Source of the DNA: a virus
Length of the DNA stretch: 52,429 nt
IMG/VR virus record: IMGVR_UViG_3300032516_002092
Span: 1-52,429 of that record
Direction: 5' to 3' (one strand)
The notes beneath the pieces are model-generated. The model was not told the DNA's origin. It did no database searches and was given only the letters and a program-made list of their open reading frames with translations. Within the stretch, counting starts at the first letter, position 1. Each line of letters starts with the position of its first letter. Positions 4,880 through 39,463 of this stretch are shown here, piece after piece. A program made the position numbers and the translations under genes.

Positions 4880-5106
4880 CGGACGATACTGACACGCTGA
4901 CAGTGTACCTGACCCGCAATCAGATCGCGACCATCAAGGAGTGTATCGGATTCTCTGAGGACAAGATCCGCAACTTCGACTACACCTATGGGCAGTATAC
5001 CGAGGAACGATGGCGGGAGGGAGAGCAGACGCGCAAGGCCAGTCTGGCCAGCTTGCAGGATGCTAAGGCCGCCCTGCCCGACTTGCGCCGGAGGGCGAAG
5101 GGATGA
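4876..5106 (+). CDS. Small hypothetical protein
   Basis: A 76-residue protein starting at GTG 4876, which overlaps the stop of the HTH gene (GTGA). The sequence is rich in charged residues and predicted to be helical from about residue 18 to the end, with many Glu/Lys/Arg. No domain is recognised. Its end overlaps the methyltransferase start by ATGA, so it is translationally coupled on both sides. Function unknown. Confidence 0.65.
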   Translation: MTDDTDTLTVYLTRNQIATIKECIGFSEDKIRNFDYTYGQYTEERWREGEQTRKASLASLQDAKAALPDLRRRAKG

Positions 5107-6515
5107 CAGAGACGCCCGTGGCACCCAGGCCCTGGCCCGAAGCCCAACAGATATTGCCGCCACTTTCGCAGAGCGAGCGCCAATCGCTGGCGGCTAGTAT
5201 CGCGCGGTCAGGTGTGCAACATCCAATCCTCACGCTGACAGATGGGCGTATCATCGATGGCCATCACCGTTGGGAGTTGTCCAATGGCAAGGCGCCGATC
5301 GAGATTCGGGACTTGCCCGAAGAAGAAGCCCTAGCACTGGCGCTGGCACTGAACATCGCCCGCCGGCAGTTGTCGCCCGCGCAGTTGGGGGAAGTACAAG
5401 AGCGCTTGCGGAAGAGTGCCGAGCTTCGGAAGCAGACAGCGCTGAAACTGCGCGACCAGGGCATGACTCAAGAGCAGACGGCGGCAACGGTTGGGGTTAC
5501 ACAATCAACCGTACACGAGTGGGAAGAGCAAGCGAGGATACAGGGCGGAAGCAATATCAAAATCGATAATGCTTCCCATTCCGAACCTCCCGCTTCGAAA
5601 ACTTCTCTGCCCCCCGATCTACGCACCACGGTTCCCGCACATGAGAAGGAGCGCATCTATGAGCGGGTGCTGGCGGGTGAGAGTCACGAAGCGGTCGCAG
5701 CCGACTATCACATAACGCGACGGCGGGTGGGGCAGATCGTCAAGGATCTGGCGAAAGAAGAGCGTCGGCGGGAGCGGGAAGAGGAGCGAGTGAAGCCGCC
5801 GGCAATCGTCAAGCCTTCCCCTACTCTCCACCAAGCCAGAGCAGAGGCGCTACCAATCGCTGATGAGTCTGTGGACGTGATCATCACTTCGCCGCCCTAC
5901 AACCTGGGGGACGGCGATTGGCCGATGGGCGGTGAGGGGCGCACCCCACGCGAGCAGGGTATCGGGTATGAGGACGCCAAGCCCGAAGCAGAGTACCAGA
6001 CCTGGCAGGTGCAGGTGTTCCGTGAGCTGTACCGGGTGGCCAAGCCAGGCGCCAGCTTCTTCTACAACCACAAGTGCCGGCAGCGGGACGGTCGAGTTAT
6101 TCACCCGATGGACTGGATTCGTCACCCTGACAACCCGTGGATTCTGCGTCAGGAGATCGTCTGGGACCGGGGCAGCACGCATAACCATTCGCCGGCGCTG
6201 TTCTGGCCCGAGGATGAGCGCATCTATTGGATGACCAAAGGTAGGCCCGTTATCCCAGAAGGGGGAATAGCGCAACCTTCCGTGTGGCGCCTTTTCGGGC
6301 CGGTTCCGAACACTTGGCACCCGGCGCCCTTCTCCGACGAGCTGCCCAAACGCTGCCTGCAAGCTATAGGCCGACCGGGAATTGTAGTGCTAGACCCCTT
6401 CGGTGGCAGCATGACAACCTGCAAGGTTGCCCTGGCTATGGGCTACGAGGCAATCGGTGTAGATGTGTGCGCCGAGTATGTGAACCGAGCCAAGGGGGAA
6501 AACGGGTGGAATTAG
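5103..6515 (+). CDS. ParB-like N-terminal domain fused to DNA methyltransferase
   Basis: In this 470-residue protein residues 20-100 form a ParB/Srx-like domain, with DGHHR at 52-56. Two HTH segments follow (about 118-142 and 192-212). The C-terminal half is a DNA amino-methyltransferase: TSPPY at 262-266 is the catalytic (D/N/S)PPY motif and VVLDPFGG near residue 430 is the AdoMet-binding motif. The motif order places it in the beta class of N4-cytosine or N6-adenine enzymes. Such fusions are common in phages and probably modify phage DNA against host restriction. A second, different ParB-methyltransferase lies at 18386. Confidence 0.88.
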   Translation: MTETPVAPRPWPEAQQILPPLSQSERQSLAASIARSGVQHPILTLTDGRIIDGHHRWELSNGKAPIEIRDLPEEEALALALALNIARRQLSPAQLGEVQERLRKSAELRKQTALKLRDQGMTQEQTAATVGVTQSTVHEWEEQARIQGGSNIKIDNASHSEPPASKTSLPPDLRTTVPAHEKERIYERVLAGESHEAVAADYHITRRRVGQIVKDLAKEERRREREEERVKPPAIVKPSPTLHQARAEALPIADESVDVIITSPPYNLGDGDWPMGGEGRTPREQGIGYEDAKPEAEYQTWQVQVFRELYRVAKPGASFFYNHKCRQRDGRVIHPMDWIRHPDNPWILRQEIVWDRGSTHNHSPALFWPEDERIYWMTKGRPVIPEGGIAQPSVWRLFGPVPNTWHPAPFSDELPKRCLQAIGRPGIVVLDPFGGSMTTCKVALAMGYEAIGVDVCAEYVNRAKGENGWN

Positions 6516-10010: not shown

Positions 10011-10622
10011 GTGCCAACACGGAAAGCAGCGGCGGGACCAATCGCAATCAAGCCTTTGGACGTGCGGGTGACAGAGATCGAGGTCGTGGGGAAGTCAGAG
10101 CTTATCGTCCACCAGTGGAGTGAGAAGGCAAAGCGCCAGATGCTTGACAAGCAGATGGGCAAGGCGCAGCCCAAGAAGGAGAAGAAGGACCCGGAAGCCG
10201 ACTACGAGGCCAGCAAGTACAGGCTGCCGGATGGCGGTTGCGGGTTCCCGGCGTCGGGGTTCAAGGCGGCCATCGTGGGCGCCTGTCGGCTCTTCGACGG
10301 GCTCACCATGACGCAGGTGAAAGTTTGCGTTCGGGTGCTCGGTGAGGATGACGGCGAGCTGGTGCGTATCGTCGGAGAGCCTCGGATGCGTGAGGACATG
10401 GTGCGGCTGGAGTCGGGAGTGGCGGACATTCGGCACCGGGCCGGCTTCCCGGAGTGGCGGGCGAAGTTGCGGATTCGACACATCGCCAACGTGGTCACGG
10501 ACGAGATCCTGCTCAACCTGGTGAGTGCAGCAGGTGAGGGCGGTGTAGGCGAGTGGCGACCAAGTGCGCCCAACAGTGTGACTGGCTCGTTTGGGTGCTT
10601 CGAAGTGGCGACTGGCGACTAA
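10011..10622 (+). CDS. Conserved phage protein, possibly RAMP/Cas7-like
   Basis: The 203-residue product begins at GTG 10011 after a strong Shine-Dalgarno (CGGAGGAG). The first half has ELIVHQWSEKA at 30-40; then CGFPASGFKAAIVGACR at 77-93 resembles the ssLKGalR element of RAMP/Cas7 folds, and GVGEWRP at 178-184 with GSFGCFEV resembles the C-terminal glycine-rich loop. A basic segment (50-60) could contact nucleic acid. I recognise the overall pattern from other phage genomes but know no assigned function. It lies directly before the 5-nt-periodic array, which makes an RNA- or DNA-binding filament role worth testing. The fold call is tentative. Confidence 0.6.
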   Translation: MPTRKAAAGPIAIKPLDVRVTEIEVVGKSELIVHQWSEKAKRQMLDKQMGKAQPKKEKKDPEADYEASKYRLPDGGCGFPASGFKAAIVGACRLFDGLTMTQVKVCVRVLGEDDGELVRIVGEPRMREDMVRLESGVADIRHRAGFPEWRAKLRIRHIANVVTDEILLNLVSAAGEGGVGEWRPSAPNSVTGSFGCFEVATGD

Positions 10623-11402
10623 GGCATAGCGGACGTGGTGCGGGGAGGTGTGGGTTGGTGGGGCAGACCACGGTGGTACAAGGCGGGGTGCGGCGTGGAT
10701 TGGCAGTCAAGGTGTGTCAGGAGGAGGCTAGGCATGTCCGGGTGCGGCCTGGTTCGGTGAGGCAGTCGAGGCGCGACATGGCCAGGCCCGGCCTGTCATG
10801 GTCTGGTAGGTTTTGCTCGGCTTGGGCTTGGCGAGGCAGTCAAGGTGTGGGCGTCAAGGTGGGCTACGGCGTATCGAGGGCTGGACGGGCACGGAGGGGC
10901 AAGGCAGTCGTGGTGAGGTTTGGGCTGGAGTGTACGGACGTGGTGAGGCAGACACGGGGAGGCGGTGCGGGCCAAGGCGCGGCGAGTCTGGGCTTGCTGC
11001 GGAGCGGCAAGGCAGTCAAGGTCAGGTCTGGCACGTCGGGGCCGGTCGAGTTACGGCATGGCCGGGCAGACATGGTCTGGTATGTCGAGTCAACGCATGG
11101 TATGGCGGTGTGCGGCAGTCGAGGCGTGGTTTGGACTGGTGAGGTGGTGCGGGGTGAGGCCCGGTGGGACTTGGCAGTCACGGTGAGGCGCGGCGATGTC
11201 CGGTCGGGCTAGTTCGGGTGTGCTGTGGCGCGGCAGTCGGGGTAAGGCGGGTCACGGCTCGGCGTGGCCAGGCCCGGTGGGTCAAGGCAGTCGAGGTTGG
11301 TTGTGTCGGTGCGCGGGTTGGCTTGACGTGGTGGGGCAGACTTGGTGTGGCGGGATGAGTCTTGGCGAGCAGAGACGAGGCCAGGCAGGCGCGGTAATCG
11401 GG
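10623..11402 (+). repeat. Non-coding array of GGYNN pentamers with interspersed 9-mers
   Basis: This 0.8 kb gap has no plausible gene. From 10702 to 11343 it parses without indels into 5-nt units, mostly GGYNN, interrupted by 9-nt elements with consensus GGCAG(T/A)C(A/G)N. The 9-mers start at 10702, 10761, 10835, 10903, 10947, 11011, 11065, 11114, 11173, 11232, 11286 and 11335 (a 10-nt variant at 10662; an extra GGGCGTCAA at 10849). Intervals are 59, 74, 68, 44, 64, 54, 49, 59, 59, 54 and 49. Each equals 9 plus a multiple of 5, except 68, which is two 9-mers plus ten pentamers. The unit length is incompatible with codons. The GG-rich strand is the transcribed-gene strand. Confidence 0.92.
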
Positions 11403-11418: not shown

Positions 11419-11643
11419 GTGGAGTGCAAGCTAGCGGGCAACCTGAAGAGCATCACCATCAAGCAGGGCAAGGCCGACGCCGAGACGGGCGGGCGGGATG
11501 CGCCGGTGGCAGTGGTGCAACTGGAGGTGGACGCGACCGACACGCTGGGGCGTTTGGCTCTGTTCGTGGGCCAGTCGGTGAGGGTGACGATCAAGTCCGA
11601 CCTACTGGCGTTCGAGGGCGCCGTGCGGGAGGTGACATCGTGA
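11419..11643 (+). CDS. Small beta-rich hypothetical protein
   Basis: A 74-residue protein starting at GTG 11419, with AAAGGAG at 11405-11411 upstream. The sequence alternates hydrophobic and polar residues in four or five predicted strands and ends without a helical tail, suggesting a small beta-barrel or sandwich. No known domain is recognised. It is the first gene after the pentanucleotide array and may be co-transcribed with it. Its stop overlaps the next GTG start (GTGA). Confidence 0.7.
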   Translation: MECKLAGNLKSITIKQGKADAETGGRDAPVAVVQLEVDATDTLGRLALFVGQSVRVTIKSDLLAFEGAVREVTS

Positions 11644-11876: not shown

Positions 11877-11906
11877 TTGACATCGAGTGAAGATGTGCGG
11901 TATAAT
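11877..11906 (+). promoter_or_regulatory. Sigma-70 promoter for HTH-tnpB block
   Basis: TTGACA at 11877-11882 and TATAAT at 11901-11906, 18-bp spacer. It precedes the HTH gene at 11942, and tnpB starts 6 nt after that gene's stop, so one transcript probably covers both. Confidence 0.88.
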
Positions 11907-11941
11907 AGTGACTAGTAGAAGATACATAAGGGAGGGTGGGC

Positions 11942-12154
11942 ATGAACCCGATTGTGACTCTTCGGAAGAGTCTGGGGATGACGAGAGTGGAGGCCGCACA
12001 GAAGATGGGCGTCTCCTACCAGGACCTAACGCTTTTGGAGAACGGATACCCACTGTATCTGCCGGGCCGAGTCATGGACGCGTTACCGAAGCTGGGCGCC
12101 AACTCCGAGCTAATCGCGGCCGAGTACAAGGCGTGGCGAGAGGCGAGGGGGTAG
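11942..12154 (+). CDS. XRE-like helix-turn-helix protein
   Basis: This 70-residue protein starts at ATG 11942, with AGGGAGG upstream. Residues 5-50 have the pattern of a Cro/C1-type HTH: LRKSLGMTRVEAAQKMGVSY, then DLTLLENGY as the recognition and following helices. It lacks any dimerisation or peptidase tail. It has its own consensus promoter with an adjoining palindrome, consistent with autoregulation. The TnpB gene begins 6 nt downstream, so the HTH protein may control the transposon nuclease, or the nuclease may have landed behind a phage regulator. Confidence 0.78.
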   Translation: MNPIVTLRKSLGMTRVEAAQKMGVSYQDLTLLENGYPLYLPGRVMDALPKLGANSELIAAEYKAWREARG

Positions 12155-12159
12155 AGGCC

Positions 12160-13377
12160 GTGCTCAGGGCGTATCGCACGGAACTGGATCCCAACAATGC
12201 GCAGCAGACAGTGTTCGTTCGCCATGCTGGGGCCGCGAGATTCTGTTTCAACTGGGCACTGGCCGACAGGATCGAGCGGTTCAAGGCGGGCCAACCGACC
12301 AACCACTACGAACAGAAGAAGCGGTTCAACGCCCTGAAGAAGGAGCAATTCCCCTGGCTCTCCGAGGTGGCGTACAAGGTCCAGGAGCAAGGCCTCGCCA
12401 ATCTGGACATAGCCTACAAGAACTTCTTCCGCCGGGTCAAGAGGGGCGAGGTCAAGAAGGGGTTCCCCCGATTCAAGTCGCGCAAACGAGGGCTAGGCGG
12501 GTTCACTCTACGGGGCAACCTCACCGTCGAGCGGCAGCGTATCAATCTGCCGGTAATCGGTTGGGTGAAGATCAAGGAGGCAGGCTACCTTCCGCAGGCA
12601 GACGTGAGGGTTCTATCAGCCAATGTCTCTGAGCGGGTGGGGCGTTGGTTTATCAGCCTCCAGGTAGAGCAGGAGACCGCACAGCCAAAGCCCGCCACCG
12701 GTCCATCCATCGGCGTGGATGTGGGGCTGAAAGTGCTGGCGGTGTGTTCGGATGGGACCGTGTTCGAGAATCCGAAGACGCTGAAGCGCAATGAGGCCCG
12801 GCTAGCGCAACTTCAGCGGGAGATGTGCCGACGCCAGAAGGGAAGTAAGAACCGAGCCAAGACGCGACGCAAGGTGGCCAAGCTGCACTTCAAGGTCGCC
12901 AACATTCGCAAGCATACCATCCACCAAGTAAGCCACTACCTGACGGCGAAAGCCAAGCCGCAGACGGTGGTAATCGAGGATCTGAACGTCAAGGGCATGA
13001 TGCAGAATCGGAAACTGAGCAAGGCGATTGCGGACGCCTCCTGGGGCGAGCTTCGGCGGCAGTTGGAGTACAAGGCGGCCTGGTATGGCGTGGATCTGGT
13101 GGTGGCTGGACGATTCTACCCGAGCAGCAAGACGTGCTCGGCCTGTGGGAACGTCAAGCCTTTACTGCGACTCTCTGAGCGAACCTTTGTCTGCGAGGCG
13201 TGCGGGATGGTTCTGGACCGCGACGCTAACGCATCGATCAACCTCCAGAACCTCGCCGCTAAACGGGCGGTGGCTGCCTGTGGAGGGAGTATAGGTCCAG
13301 GTGCAAGCCTGGCGGTTCCCGGTGAATCAGGAACTCGGCAGGCACTCGGTCACAAGTCCGAGAAGTTGGGAGGGTAG
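12160..13377 (+). CDS. tnpB: TnpB (IS200/IS605-type RNA-guided nuclease)
   Basis: Starting at GTG 12160 the protein has 405 residues, normal for TnpB. The N-terminal region has the family pattern (RAYRTELDPN, FNWALADR, FPRFKSRKR). The RuvC residues are all present: D187 in GVDVGLK, E273 in VIEDLNVKGM and D355 in LDRDANASIN. A CxxC...CxxC zinc ribbon lies at about 326-349. TnpB uses an omega-RNA from the 3' end of its own element to cut target DNA. No TnpA transposase is in the window, so the element is either non-autonomous or domesticated by the phage. Confidence 0.93.
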   Translation: MLRAYRTELDPNNAQQTVFVRHAGAARFCFNWALADRIERFKAGQPTNHYEQKKRFNALKKEQFPWLSEVAYKVQEQGLANLDIAYKNFFRRVKRGEVKKGFPRFKSRKRGLGGFTLRGNLTVERQRINLPVIGWVKIKEAGYLPQADVRVLSANVSERVGRWFISLQVEQETAQPKPATGPSIGVDVGLKVLAVCSDGTVFENPKTLKRNEARLAQLQREMCRRQKGSKNRAKTRRKVAKLHFKVANIRKHTIHQVSHYLTAKAKPQTVVIEDLNVKGMMQNRKLSKAIADASWGELRRQLEYKAAWYGVDLVVAGRFYPSSKTCSACGNVKPLLRLSERTFVCEACGMVLDRDANASINLQNLAAKRAVAACGGSIGPGASLAVPGESGTRQALGHKSEKLGG

Positions 13378-18385: not shown

Positions 18386-19558
18386 ATGGCTAAGGCACCG
18401 GCGATCAGGGACCGAATCAAGGATCTGCGGCGGGTACGGGCCGGCGACCTTCTGCCCGAGCCTCGCAACTGGAGACGACACCCCAAGGCGCAAAGTGACG
18501 CCTTACTTGGCGTGCTTCGTGAGATAGGCTACGCCGATGCCCTCCTGGCCCGGGAGACGCCCGAGGGCCTGATGCTCATCGATGGCCACCTCCGGGCCAG
18601 TTTGACGCCGGATACGCTGGTGCCGGTCCTGGTCCTGGACGTGACCGAGGCCGAAGCGGCGACCATCCTCGCAACGCTGGATCCTCTCGCCGCAATGGCC
18701 CAGGCCGATAAGTCGGCACTGGACGCCCTGCTCAGAGACGTGAGCACTGGCGAGGCGGCGGTGCAGAAGATGCTGGCGGACCTTGCCAAGCAGAGTGGGC
18801 TCGATTACGGCGAGGAGCCAAAGCCTGACCCCGGCTCGCAGATTGACCGAGCCGAGGAGTTGCGGGAGAAGTGGCAGACAGAGCGGGGGCAGTTGTGGCT
18901 TGTCGGGAAGCACCGCCTGCTTTGTGGCGATAGCACGAAGGCAGAGGACGTGGCCCGGCTGATGGACGGGGAGCGGGCGGTAATGCTCTGGGCCGACCCT
19001 CCGTACTCGCGCGACTACGAGAGCCGTGGGGCCAAGGGCGATTGCGTGTCAACTGGAAGATGGGCAGCCATTTTGAGCAGCTTGGCGGGTTGGACCGCTC
19101 GGATTGGCAGTTGGTATGTGAAGCTGCCCTGGTACGACGCTGTAATCGCAGTGCCGGTACTAAGGCCGAAGCATCTTATCGTATGGGCAAAGCAAGGCTT
19201 TGGGCTTGGTAGGGGGGATTTTCGCCCCCAACATGAGATGCTTCTCTATGGGCGCGAGGGCGGCGTGTGTAACGCTGGCGCTGACCTGGGTGATGTCTGG
19301 ACATTCGCTGTCCCGTTCCGTGGCAGGATGCACCACGTCGCAGAAACGCCGACGCCGCTCATAGTGCAAGCTGTTGAGGTGAGTAGCCAACCCGGAGACT
19401 TGGTAGTCGACCCGTTCGCCGGAAGTGGTACTGCTCATGTCGCTGCAGAGCAACTCGACCGTGTCTGCTACGGCATGGAGATCGAGCCGAAGTACGTCGC
19501 CGTGTCCCTTCAGCGTATGGCCGACATGGGGCTCACGCCCAAGCTGGCCGATGCTTGA
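18386..19558 (+). CDS. ParB-like domain fused to DNA methyltransferase (second copy)
   Basis: A 390-residue fusion of a ParB-like domain (about 10-130, with LIDGHLR at 64-70) and an N4/N6 DNA amino-methyltransferase. The catalytic DPPY is at 204-207 and the AdoMet motif VDPFAGSGT near residue 350. The two halves are joined through HRLLCGDST (177-184), typical of phage enzymes next to terminase genes. It lacks the HTH insertions of the copy at 5103 and is not a recent duplicate. It probably modifies phage DNA before packaging. It is the first gene of the late operon. Confidence 0.9.
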   Translation: MAKAPAIRDRIKDLRRVRAGDLLPEPRNWRRHPKAQSDALLGVLREIGYADALLARETPEGLMLIDGHLRASLTPDTLVPVLVLDVTEAEAATILATLDPLAAMAQADKSALDALLRDVSTGEAAVQKMLADLAKQSGLDYGEEPKPDPGSQIDRAEELREKWQTERGQLWLVGKHRLLCGDSTKAEDVARLMDGERAVMLWADPPYSRDYESRGAKGDCVSTGRWAAILSSLAGWTARIGSWYVKLPWYDAVIAVPVLRPKHLIVWAKQGFGLGRGDFRPQHEMLLYGREGGVCNAGADLGDVWTFAVPFRGRMHHVAETPTPLIVQAVEVSSQPGDLVVDPFAGSGTAHVAAEQLDRVCYGMEIEPKYVAVSLQRMADMGLTPKLADA

Positions 19559-31423: not shown

Positions 31424-31648
31424 GTGAAGAAGGTGTTGGTGCAGTACGGGGGCACCTCGTGCCGCAAATGCGGTCAGCAGGGCTCACCCATCGAGGCCGT
31501 CGCCGTAGAGCACGGTATCGAGGATGTCGAGTTTCACCCGGACCGGGTGGTGGTCAACGGCGTGGAGGGTCCCGCCGTGTTCCCGCGGCCGGTAGGGTTT
31601 GTCAGGGTGAAAGCCGACGATGGGCAGCAGCAGCGAGGTGCTAAATGA
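31424..31648 (+). CDS. Small hypothetical protein after capsid
   Basis: A 74-residue protein, start at GTG 31424 or close by, with AAGGAGATG upstream. It contains one CRKC pair (CxxC) near residue 13-16 and otherwise beta-rich sequence (VEFHPDRVVVNG, VFPRPVGFVRV). It overlaps the next gene by ATGA. The position between capsid and the sugar-enzyme gene gives no clear hint. Function unknown. Confidence 0.55.
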   Translation: MKKVLVQYGGTSCRKCGQQGSPIEAVAVEHGIEDVEFHPDRVVVNGVEGPAVFPRPVGFVRVKADDGQQQRGAK

Positions 31649-32673
31649 GCCGAGAGGGCAATCGCAAAGAGCAGCACGGCCGGGGCTGGCAGCTCGAGGG
31701 CAAGGTCCTGGTGACCGGTGGGACGGGGTCACTAGGCCAGGCCATCGTGCGGCGAGCCAAGCGGGACCGCTGGCCAGTCGAGTTCACCATCTTGTCCAGG
31801 GACGAGGTCAAGCAGGGGCAGATGCGGGCCATCTACCCGCAGTGCCGTTACCTCCTGGGTGACGTGCGGGACATGGACGCCCTGGAGATCGCGTGCCGAG
31901 GCCAGGACATTGTCATCCATGCCGCCGCCTATAAGCAGGTGCCGACCGCTGAGGTGAACGCACATGAAACGGTCAAGACGAACGTTTGCGGGTCGTGCAA
32001 CGTAGCTATGGCGGCTGTGCGAGCCAACGTCAAACAGGTGATCGGGATCTCGACCGATAAGGCGTGCTCACCAGTCAACCTGTACGGAAAGAGCAAGGCC
32101 ATCATGGAGGCCGTCTTCCAGCAGGCCAATACCTGGGGCGACACCCGGTTCTCCCTGACTCGCTATGGCAACGTGGTGGGCAGCCGGGGCAGCATCATCC
32201 CGCTGTTTCAGAAACAGGCGGCAGCAGGGCAGTCGCTCACCGTGACCGACCGGCGCATGAACCGCTTTTGGCTCTCGCTCCAGGACGCCGTAGACCTGAT
32301 CGTCCAGGCATGGCGGGAACCGGGGGCCGGGACTATCGTGGTGCCGAAGCTCCCTAGCATGTTGGTCGTGGACCTGGCCCGGGTGGTATGGGAGATGCAC
32401 GGGTCACTCCGTGGGGCAGCCCTGCCGGCGTACATCGTCGACATCGGCATTCGCCCGGGTGAGAAGATCGACGAGCACCTCCTCCATCGGGGCGAGTCGC
32501 TGCACACTGAGGACCGTGGCGAGTTCTATCGTGTGTACCCGGCGTCGTCGGGTTACCACGGGTGCCTGCCGGATGGGTTCGAGTATCGCACAGACACCAC
32601 GGAGCTGCGGCTATCGTACGGCGGCATGCAGAGCATGATCCGGGAGAGTGAGCAGGAGGAGCAGGATGTCTGA
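31645..32673 (+). CDS. NAD-dependent sugar epimerase/dehydratase (CapD/PseB-like)
   Basis: A 342-residue short-chain dehydrogenase of the extended type. The NAD-binding VTGGTGSLGQAI lies at 21-32; IHAAAYKQVPTAE at about 91-103 and ISTDKACSPVNLYGKSK at about 135-151 carry the conserved Asp-Lys and YxxxK catalytic pair, and SLTRYGNVVGSRGS follows. This matches CapD/FlaA1/PseB enzymes that convert UDP-HexNAc sugars. It is the first enzyme of the island and could make the nucleotide sugar used by the glycosyltransferases downstream. Such genes are normally host surface-glycan genes. Confidence 0.88.
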   Translation: MSREGNRKEQHGRGWQLEGKVLVTGGTGSLGQAIVRRAKRDRWPVEFTILSRDEVKQGQMRAIYPQCRYLLGDVRDMDALEIACRGQDIVIHAAAYKQVPTAEVNAHETVKTNVCGSCNVAMAAVRANVKQVIGISTDKACSPVNLYGKSKAIMEAVFQQANTWGDTRFSLTRYGNVVGSRGSIIPLFQKQAAAGQSLTVTDRRMNRFWLSLQDAVDLIVQAWREPGAGTIVVPKLPSMLVVDLARVVWEMHGSLRGAALPAYIVDIGIRPGEKIDEHLLHRGESLHTEDRGEFYRVYPASSGYHGCLPDGFEYRTDTTELRLSYGGMQSMIRESEQEEQDV

Positions 32674-36698: not shown

Positions 36699-36851
36699 AT
36701 GAAGGTCTGGGTGGTTCTGGTTGGGTGGGATGTGGCAGGCATCTACGCTACAGAGGATATGGCAAAGGCTAAGAAGGACGCAGAGGTGGCGGAGGGCGTC
36801 CATTTCTGTATCCGTATTCAAGAACATGTCATCTCGGGGGCACCGGAGTGA
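36699..36851 (+). CDS. Single VW..GIY module protein
   Basis: A 50-residue protein, ATG 36699 after GTAGGAGGGGG. It is a single copy of the module seen twice at 35752 (KVWVVLVGWDVAGIYATEDM). Its stop overlaps the GTG start of the large glycosyltransferase. The strong Shine-Dalgarno and coupling support expression. Function unknown. Confidence 0.65.
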   Translation: MKVWVVLVGWDVAGIYATEDMAKAKKDAEVAEGVHFCIRIQEHVISGAPE

Positions 36852-39463
36852 AGCGCCTATACGTGGCCCCCCAGTTCGACAAGCCGGACGCCGCCGATGG
36901 TGGCATCCGCCGGGTAGTAGAGGCTCAGGCCCGCTACCTGCCCGATCACGGCTGGGTCATCATCCAGGACCCCTACTCGGCTGACTTGGTGGCCTGCCAC
37001 GCCGGCACCTACTGCGACCGCAACATTGACGCCGCCTGGGTGGCCCACTGCCACGGGCTCTACTGGGGCGCTGAGATGGAGTTCGGCCAGTGGGCAACTG
37101 AAGCCAACGCCCACGTCATCATCAACCTCAAGCGGGCCGACGCCATCACCGCTCCCTCCGAGTGGGTGGCACAGTCCATTCGCCGGGGACTCTGCACGGG
37201 TGTGGATGTCATCGGCCACGGGATCGAGCCCGACGAGTGGGATCTCGGCCAGAGCCAGGGCTACGTGCTCTGGAACAAGGCCCGGCAGGATGTCGTTTGT
37301 GACCCCGCCGAGATGAACAAGCTGGCGGCGATGTGCCCGGACGTCAAGTTCCTGAGCACGTTCGGCCAAGAGCGAACAAATGTCAGCATCATGGGCAAGG
37401 TGCCCTACGACTCCATGCGGGAGACCGTCAGGAACGCTGGCGTCTACCTCTGCACCGCACGGGAGACCTTTGGCATCGGCACCCTGGAAGCGATGGCGGC
37501 GGGCGTACCCGTCCTGGCGTGGCGGCACGGTGGGCAGGTTGACATCATCCAGCACCAGGAGCATGGGTGGCTCTCGACGCCGGGCGACTATGACGACCTG
37601 GCCCGGGGCCTTCGCTACTGCCTGGCCAACCGGGCACGGCTGGGGGCGGCGGCTCGGGATCATGTCCTGACTCGCTACCTCTGGCGGGATGTCATTGCCA
37701 GGTATGCCCAACTCTACGACCGGGTGTTGGCCAGGGGGCAACAGGACCATAGCGGCCCCAAGGTCTCGGTCGTCGTCACCTGCTACAACCTGGCCCAGTT
37801 CTTGGGCGAGTGCCTGGAGTCCATTCGCAAGCAGACGATGTTCGACTGGGAGTGCATCATCGTCGACGATTGCAGCCCGGACAATACGCCCGAGGTGGCC
37901 GCCGACTGGACGGCCAAGGACCCGCGCATCAAGTATGTTCGCAACGAGACCAACCAGTACCTGGCCGAAGCTCGCAACGTGGGCATCCGGGCCAGCCATG
38001 GCCAGTACATCCTGTGCCTGGACGCCGACGACATGCTGGAGCCCAGAGCCCTGGAGATCCTGTCTGAAGCACTCGACCGGAACCATTCTATCGACATCGC
38101 CTATGGCCACATGGAGGCCTTCTACCCCGAACGTCGGGATGGCAACCAGCGGGAGCGGGGCGACTGGCCCACGGCGTTCCGGATGGAACAGCAGATGGCA
38201 GGCCGTAACCAGCTCCCGTACGCCAGCATGTACCGGCGCCGGGCTTGGGAGCGGGTGGGTGGCTACCGACAGCACATCCGCACCGCGGAGGACGCCGACT
38301 TCTGGTGCCGGGTGACCGGCTATGGGTTCAAGCCCGCTAAGGTGACCGAGGCGGTCTTCCTGGTCAAGCGGGAACTTACTCGCAGCATGAGTCGGGTAGA
38401 GCCGGTCAGTCGGGACTGGCGAGACTGGGCACCCTGGGCACGCAACCCACGACTGGCGCCGTTTGGTGCCGTCCTCTCCTCCACCCAGCGGGAAGAGCGG
38501 CACGCCTGGCCCGTCCGGTCGCACGCCAAGCCCCGATTCTCAGTCGTCATCCCGGTGGGGCCCGGCCACTCGAAGGCGGTCATCAAGGCCATTGACTCCG
38601 TAGTAGCGCAGACAACGCCCGACTGGGAAGCCATCATCGTCAACGACACCGGCGGCGACCTGTCGCTGCCCGGCTTCCCGTTCGCCAAAGTCATCACCAC
38701 GTCCGGCAAGGCCGGTGCAGGTGCCGCTCGCAACGCTGGGGCGAAGGTGGCGCTGGGCCAGTTCCTGACCTTCCTGGACGCCGACGACTGGCTGCACCCG
38801 GAGTTTCTGCGGACCTGCTCGCAGGTCTGGAAGGACCCGCACGAGTACGTCTACACCAACAGCATGAACGTCCGGGGAGCGACCATCGAAGAGTTCGACC
38901 CTGGTGACATCACCAGTCAGGACCATCTGAAGGAGTCCAAGCACCCGGTGACGACGCTGCTGCCGAGGCAGGCGTGGGTAGATGTCGGCGGGTTTGACGA
39001 GGTGATGCTGGGGTGGGAGGACTGGGATTTCTACATCGCCTTGGCGGTGGCGGGTTACGTTCCGGTGCACCTGCCGACCGTGCTGGTGGCCTACGACCTC
39101 TACTCCGGCGAACGCCGGGAGGCTGCCATAGCGGCCAAGGCGAAGTTGATCCCGTACCTGCATGAGAAGTGGTTTGACTACATCGAGGGGAACAAAGAGA
39201 TGGGCTGTGGCAGTTGTGGACGGAGGGCTAGTGCTCCACCCCCGGTAGCGCCGGTTACTGATAACGTGCAGTCGAGTATCCCGGTGGCCGGTGGCGCTGT
39301 CGACCAGATGGTCATGATCGAGTACGCCGACCCCCGGCAGGGGGATCACTTGGTGTTTGGCCGGGCTACTGCGACCAAGTACGGTATTCGCTCGCAGGGT
39401 GACCACTTTTATGTCGACCCCCGCGATATCGCCATCGAGCCGGCGCGGTTCCGGGTGGCATGA
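36848..39463 (+). CDS. Three-domain glycosyltransferase (GT4-GT2-GT2)
   Basis: An 871-residue protein with three glycosyltransferase units. Residues 1-295 are GT-B/GT4-like, with ETFGIGTLEAMAAGVPVLA carrying the donor-binding Glu. Residues 303-540 are GT2 (VSVVVTCYNLAQFLGECLES, VDDCSPDNTP, LDADDMLEP). Residues 555-790 are a second GT2 (FSVVIPVGPGHSKAV, LDADDWLHP). About 80 C-terminal residues have a short Cys cluster (CGSCGRR). Fusions like this build a defined oligosaccharide in one pass. The last residues overlap the next gene. Confidence 0.88.
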   Translation: MKRLYVAPQFDKPDAADGGIRRVVEAQARYLPDHGWVIIQDPYSADLVACHAGTYCDRNIDAAWVAHCHGLYWGAEMEFGQWATEANAHVIINLKRADAITAPSEWVAQSIRRGLCTGVDVIGHGIEPDEWDLGQSQGYVLWNKARQDVVCDPAEMNKLAAMCPDVKFLSTFGQERTNVSIMGKVPYDSMRETVRNAGVYLCTARETFGIGTLEAMAAGVPVLAWRHGGQVDIIQHQEHGWLSTPGDYDDLARGLRYCLANRARLGAAARDHVLTRYLWRDVIARYAQLYDRVLARGQQDHSGPKVSVVVTCYNLAQFLGECLESIRKQTMFDWECIIVDDCSPDNTPEVAADWTAKDPRIKYVRNETNQYLAEARNVGIRASHGQYILCLDADDMLEPRALEILSEALDRNHSIDIAYGHMEAFYPERRDGNQRERGDWPTAFRMEQQMAGRNQLPYASMYRRRAWERVGGYRQHIRTAEDADFWCRVTGYGFKPAKVTEAVFLVKRELTRSMSRVEPVSRDWRDWAPWARNPRLAPFGAVLSSTQREERHAWPVRSHAKPRFSVVIPVGPGHSKAVIKAIDSVVAQTTPDWEAIIVNDTGGDLSLPGFPFAKVITTSGKAGAGAARNAGAKVALGQFLTFLDADDWLHPEFLRTCSQVWKDPHEYVYTNSMNVRGATIEEFDPGDITSQDHLKESKHPVTTLLPRQAWVDVGGFDEVMLGWEDWDFYIALAVAGYVPVHLPTVLVAYDLYSGERREAAIAAKAKLIPYLHEKWFDYIEGNKEMGCGSCGRRASAPPPVAPVTDNVQSSIPVAGGAVDQMVMIEYADPRQGDHLVFGRATATKYGIRSQGDHFYVDPRDIAIEPARFRVA

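Follow-up and report, generated by a model that had tools for sequence, protein, structure and literature searches.

A GGCA-punctuated pentamer array beside a RAMP-fold protein gene in a phage genome is explained by the published VIPR system

VIPR is a newly reported system of RNA-guided DNA recognition and has been proposed as an ancestor of the CRISPR RAMPs. According to the preprint that described it in April 2026 (PMC13142463, doi 10.64898/2026.04.26.720920), it consists of phage-encoded RAMP proteins and of vrRNAs in which GGY and NN alternate, the NN pairs reading DNA with a one-base skip. The preprint further reports an RNA-protein complex, DNA binding, and repression that needs no more than Vipr plus vrRNA; the roles given are repression, phage defence and prophage induction, and the targets are satellites, prophages and other VIPR loci. 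Guides comprise about 9–16 repeats and the systems are mostly phage or prophage encoded. Seven types are distinguished there, some of them with staggered arrays and overlapping vrRNAs, and SUSP1 represents type II, the guides of which carry an invariable 3′ tail (PMC13142463).

The window analysed here, i.e. the whole stretch of 52,429 nucleotides from an IMG/VR virus record (IMGVR_UViG_3300032516_002092, denoted G000), harbors a locus of very similar composition, namely a small RAMP protein, a flanking array of GGY/NN pentamers with 8–14 units per guide, and a phage as host replicon; head and virion structural families are found in the window, while the terminase match is weak. The relatives of the locus furthermore share with VIPR the one-base-skip code and targets that include other VIPR loci. 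The array is a genuine feature and is explained by the already published system. With high probability the locus is a VIPR locus with about twelve guides beside vipr, which would be transcribed and direct the repression of rival phages' genes, and it would thus add a long array to the known VIPR systems. Its features are listed below. The vipr gene was assigned by family, fold and profile matches, the array by autocorrelation, segmentation and homologous arrays, the leading part by segmentation, guide 3 by segmentation and unit reading, the other guides by unit reading, and the last entry by ORF call and family searches.

10011-10622, + strand: vipr gene, 203-aa protein of predicted RAMP fold (Csm3/Cas7-like), phrog_4652
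10628-10701, + strand: less regular stretch leading into the array, perhaps a degenerate or a first guide
10702-11388, + strand: putative array of vrRNA guides, built of G[G/T]YNN pentamers and GGCA delimiters, 12 segments from GGCA to GGCA
10706-10760, + strand: guide 1, 11 units, NN = AA GT AG GA TA AT CG GC CT TC GA
10765-10834, + strand: guide 2, 14 units
10839-10902, + strand: guide 3, which includes one additional 9-mer, the variant GGGCGTCAA at 10849, and 10 units after its 4-nt part
10907-10946, + strand: guide 4, 8 units
10951-11010, + strand: guide 5, 12 units
11015-11064, + strand: guide 6, 10 units
11069-11113, + strand: guide 7, 9 units
11118-11172, + strand: guide 8, 11 units
11177-11231, + strand: guide 9, 11 units
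11236-11285, + strand: guide 10, 10 units
11290-11334, + strand: guide 11, 9 units
11339-11383, + strand: guide 12, 9 units
11419-11643, + strand: 74-aa ORF downstream of the array, without family match

The periodicity of the array is evident from the autocorrelation of GG dinucleotides in 10623-11402, which peaks at lags 5, 10, 15 and 20 (z 6.2, 5.5, 5.0 and 5.0) relative to 1000 dinucleotide-preserving shuffles. At lag 5 the GG count is 63, compared to 32.5 in the shuffles (sd 4.9, maximum 52). A preliminary description of this DNA had expected strong peaks at lags 5 and 9; the former lies far above the shuffles, whereas the signal at lag 9 taken by itself is weak (z 1.5). High values are obtained at lags 39 and 44 (z 5.1 and 6.1), as is expected where guides end in a 4-nt unit. 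Segmentation reproduces the earlier cut into 5-mers, twelve punctuating elements and one variant, together with the spacings of 44, 49, 54, 59, 64, 74 and, with an extra 9-mer, 68. The elements had been described as 9-mers; each is better parsed as a 4-nt GGCA with a regular 5-nt unit (GTCNN or GACNN) behind it. GGCA starts at 10702, 10761, 10835, 10903, 10947, 11011, 11065, 11114, 11173, 11232, 11286 and 11335, a further GGCA is located at 11384, and the variant lies within guide 3.

Read in this way, G[G/T]YNN units and 4-nt GGCA breaks cover 10702-11388 almost wholly, and in the segmentation the phase is held over 680 nt with stray indels absent. In the true register G[G/T]Y fits 88 of 126 units, as opposed to 1–13 in the other four registers; about 30% of the units deviate from the strict motif. 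Between successive GGCA elements 8–14 pentamers are found, with only 8 in one guide. Such a unit structure is unique to this segment within the window, the next-best region reaching less than one fifth of its autocorrelation excess. Searches against Rfam and for tRNAs gave no match in the window, and neither a sigma-70-type promoter nor an intrinsic terminator near the array nor a long well-conserved CRISPR-type repeat was found. The predicted secondary structure of the array RNA is nothing special (z -0.93). Of the earlier proposal of a structured or protein-coated RNA or single-stranded DNA with a 5-nt footprint, the coated RNA fits the Vipr-vrRNA complex outlined in the preprint (PMC13142463), whereas a special structure is not borne out.

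The neighbouring gene at 10011, already described as RAMP-like, encodes a member of phrog_4652 (E 2.5e-29), a family to which PHROGs assigns no function and which the present analysis links to Vipr by sequence homology. Its family profile matches PDB entry 36pp, 'SUSP1 Vipr protein' (E 5.8e-10). An AF2 model calculated from a 13-member alignment is of good quality (pLDDT 83), and its closest structural counterparts are Csm3/Cas7-like RAMPs (E 1.7e-5 in Foldseek; VIA Z 10.9 over 151 residues). As judged from this model, the gene product is a RAMP protein with the Csm3/Cas7 fold. Entry 36pp is absent among the fold-search matches listed and was reached by the sequence profile only.

In IMG/VR, in GTDB genomes and among phages in GenBank, 121 loci were identified once known duplicates had been removed, a number that includes the window. 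A like array, which the preliminary description had proposed to seek downstream of relatives of this gene, is present on the gene's strand in 105 of them and on the opposite strand in none; of the 16 array-less loci 7 are cut-off contigs. The array thus withstands the refuting condition named earlier, unrelated sequence at this place in related phages. Pooled over the relatives, the units show G (0.92) at the first position, G (0.78) or T (0.15) at the second and C (0.62) or T (0.31) at the third, followed by two N. The four-base units are GGCA in 460 cases, and the commonest number of pentamers between them is 9–10. Near vipr, 110 of the 121 loci carry an accessory gene, phrog_15946. In the arrays of L001-L130 C seldom occupies the first N behind GGCA (3.5%, compared to 15.5% in all units), which perhaps reflects a start or processing preference. 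Two very long arrays, at 4487-6781 in L019 and 4581-7146 in L089, extend over about 2.3–2.6 kb by local segmentation, their ends being loose. Furthermore, vipr and arrays occur in three growable phages, in which the gene is annotated as hypothetical only:

L094 3595-3848: array of Mycobacterium phage Quico
L095 4620-4790: array of Gordonia phage ODay
L096 4626-4954: array of Gordonia phage UmaThurman

For an independent check of the one-base-skip code from sequence, in a clade other than that of SUSP1, a set of 468 different guides was run against the relatives' phage DNA with the arrays masked, 5.8 Mb when both strands are counted; 14 controls comprised skips of 0, 2, 3 and 4 as well as reversed and unit-shuffled guides. 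Best hits with E<0.02 were obtained for 17 guides with skip 1 in sense orientation, against 0–8 in the controls. Of these 17, 14 are free of selection bias; three window guides were removed, their loci having been fetched by pattern. At E<1e-4, four guides (three unbiased) remain with skip 1 sense and none in any of the 14 controls. In a preceding run on a smaller scale, skip 1 sense yielded 78 exact matches as opposed to 0–1 elsewhere; most of the 78 stem from a single guide directed at the codons for EDMVRVGM, which it hits in many vipr genes. The matches listed fall mainly within ORFs, where NN occupies codon positions 1 and 2 (2 and 1 in antisense) and the skipped base is the wobble one. 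Three guides target vipr (L049_g0, L053_g0 and, in antisense, L019_g0), two the accessory gene (L093_g0 and L044_g0), and two related ones a similar phage protein (L093_g1 and L103_g1); the relatives' guides are thus directed against codons that are conserved in the vipr and accessory genes of rivals. By these matches the code is reproduced for this clade. Whereas the preliminary description let the units hold phase only, the phase is kept and, as in the relatives, the variable NN pairs would additionally represent guide information, read against target DNA with the one-base skip.

In nearly all matched guides the match fills the whole interval between two successive GGCA-type tetramers, beginning with the pentamer that follows the one and ending with the pentamer that precedes the other. 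The former '9-mer' would thus be a guide delimiter, and for the relatives the sequence matches show the GGCA-type tetramer to be a guide boundary, close to the registers or start points suggested earlier. By analogy, GGCA would bound the guides in the window array as well.

Taken together, the VIPR reading is carried by the array and its co-conservation with vipr, by the RAMP fold of the gene product and its homology to SUSP1 Vipr, and, for the relatives, by the one-base-skip code, the wobble register and the GGCA guide boundary; complex formation, DNA binding and repression at this locus are transferred from PMC13142463. The gene at 10011 would give rise to a small RAMP protein, and the array in this copy would be active and transcribed on the + strand into vrRNAs, each reaching from one GGCA to the next and comprising 8–14 pentamers. 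Vipr subunits, probably one per GGYNN unit, would coat the RNA and leave the two NN bases free for pairing with DNA, so that a target would be read as xNNxNNxNN, the x being passed over. Where the target is coding, x would usually be the wobble base, and many synonymous changes would consequently not permit escape. The bound complex would then repress genes in phages and mobile elements that are in competition with this phage, rival VIPR loci included.

Guides 1, 2, 5, 6, 8 and 9 of the window were scanned in IMG/VR as 8-unit cores; with 6–14 matches each and flanking units near chance level, no target was found for these six. Self-targets at skip 1 inside the window were not significant. When guide 6 was searched in the records of 50 relatives and as many as 3 mismatches were tolerated, three 3-mismatch matches were obtained compared to one for the backward control, which is not convincing. 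A weak candidate target of guide 8 (21/22 in L179, L180, L183 and L184) is not significant. It was not counted, as the four records overlap at 99–100% identity and represent a single species, the reading frame is doubtful, and the other guides have no match there.

Alternatively, the locus could be a once-working VIPR locus in decay, its accessory gene lost and its array drifting. Phrog_15946 was not found in the window by six-frame HMM search, in agreement with tblastn, guide 3 holds an extra partial segment, and with about 30% of the units off consensus the array may indeed be partly decayed. Evidence against decay is that vipr has an intact frame, that twelve delimiters and the phase without stray indels are retained, that a few other array-bearing loci lack the accessory gene too, and that Vipr and vrRNA are sufficient for repression according to the preprint (PMC13142463); this alternative is thus considered unlikely.

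An array acting as a DNA element to which the neighbouring protein binds, such as origin iterons or a site of packaging or recombination, might be suggested by the adjoining primase and helicase-like ATPase genes and by one strongly G-rich strand. It is highly improbable, however, as in the relatives the NN pairs specify targets when read with the one-base skip, the arrays always lie on the gene's strand as for an RNA, and the gene product is a Csm3/Cas7-like RAMP. Similarly, the low-complexity appearance would agree with a functionless degenerate pentanucleotide satellite, but array and gene are conserved together in phages and prophages that are only very distantly related, with NN varying, and the array is punctuated by 4-nt units with 8–13, most often 9–10, pentamers in between. 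In view of the code test and the conservation of the array among the loci, a satellite is extremely unlikely.

Within the VIPR reading, differences from type II are observed. In Escherichia phage Andreotti, the SUSP1-like locus examined, the guides are separate, each is followed by a long non-repeat tail, and the accessory protein is an unrelated one. In the window, by contrast, the guides are arranged head to tail without 3′ tails and with GGCA alone between them, and unlike in most relatives a phrog_15946-type accessory gene is missing. The locus is possibly an uncommon VIPR variant. More specifically, and only tentatively, it could be a minimal tail-less and accessory-free form in which the 4-nt GGCA alone separates the guides of a long array; the one base missing in GGCA would then break the 5-nt register, ending one guide and starting the next. 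An arrangement to which PMC13142463 refers (S18) may correspond to this architecture.

With class 1 CRISPR-Cas systems (type III Csm3/Cas7 backbone) the window protein shares the RAMP backbone fold, and in both systems the guide RNA is coated by repeating subunits, as indicated for Vipr in PMC13142463. Contrary to class 1 systems, however, the VIPR guide is read discontinuously and the window is devoid of CRISPR repeats and spacers; class 1 Cas proteins gave no match among the seven neighbouring proteins tested. Close downstream, at 11887-13377 (+), lies a TnpB/IS605 OrfB-like gene with a Cas12f1-like TNB domain, which places two RNA-guided-type genes close together. Elsewhere in the window two phage DNA methyltransferases are encoded at 5103-6515 and 18386-19558, with weaker ParB-like matches, and nucleotide-sugar epimerase and glycosyltransferase genes at 31645-32673 and 36848-39463 are likely surface-modifying cargo.
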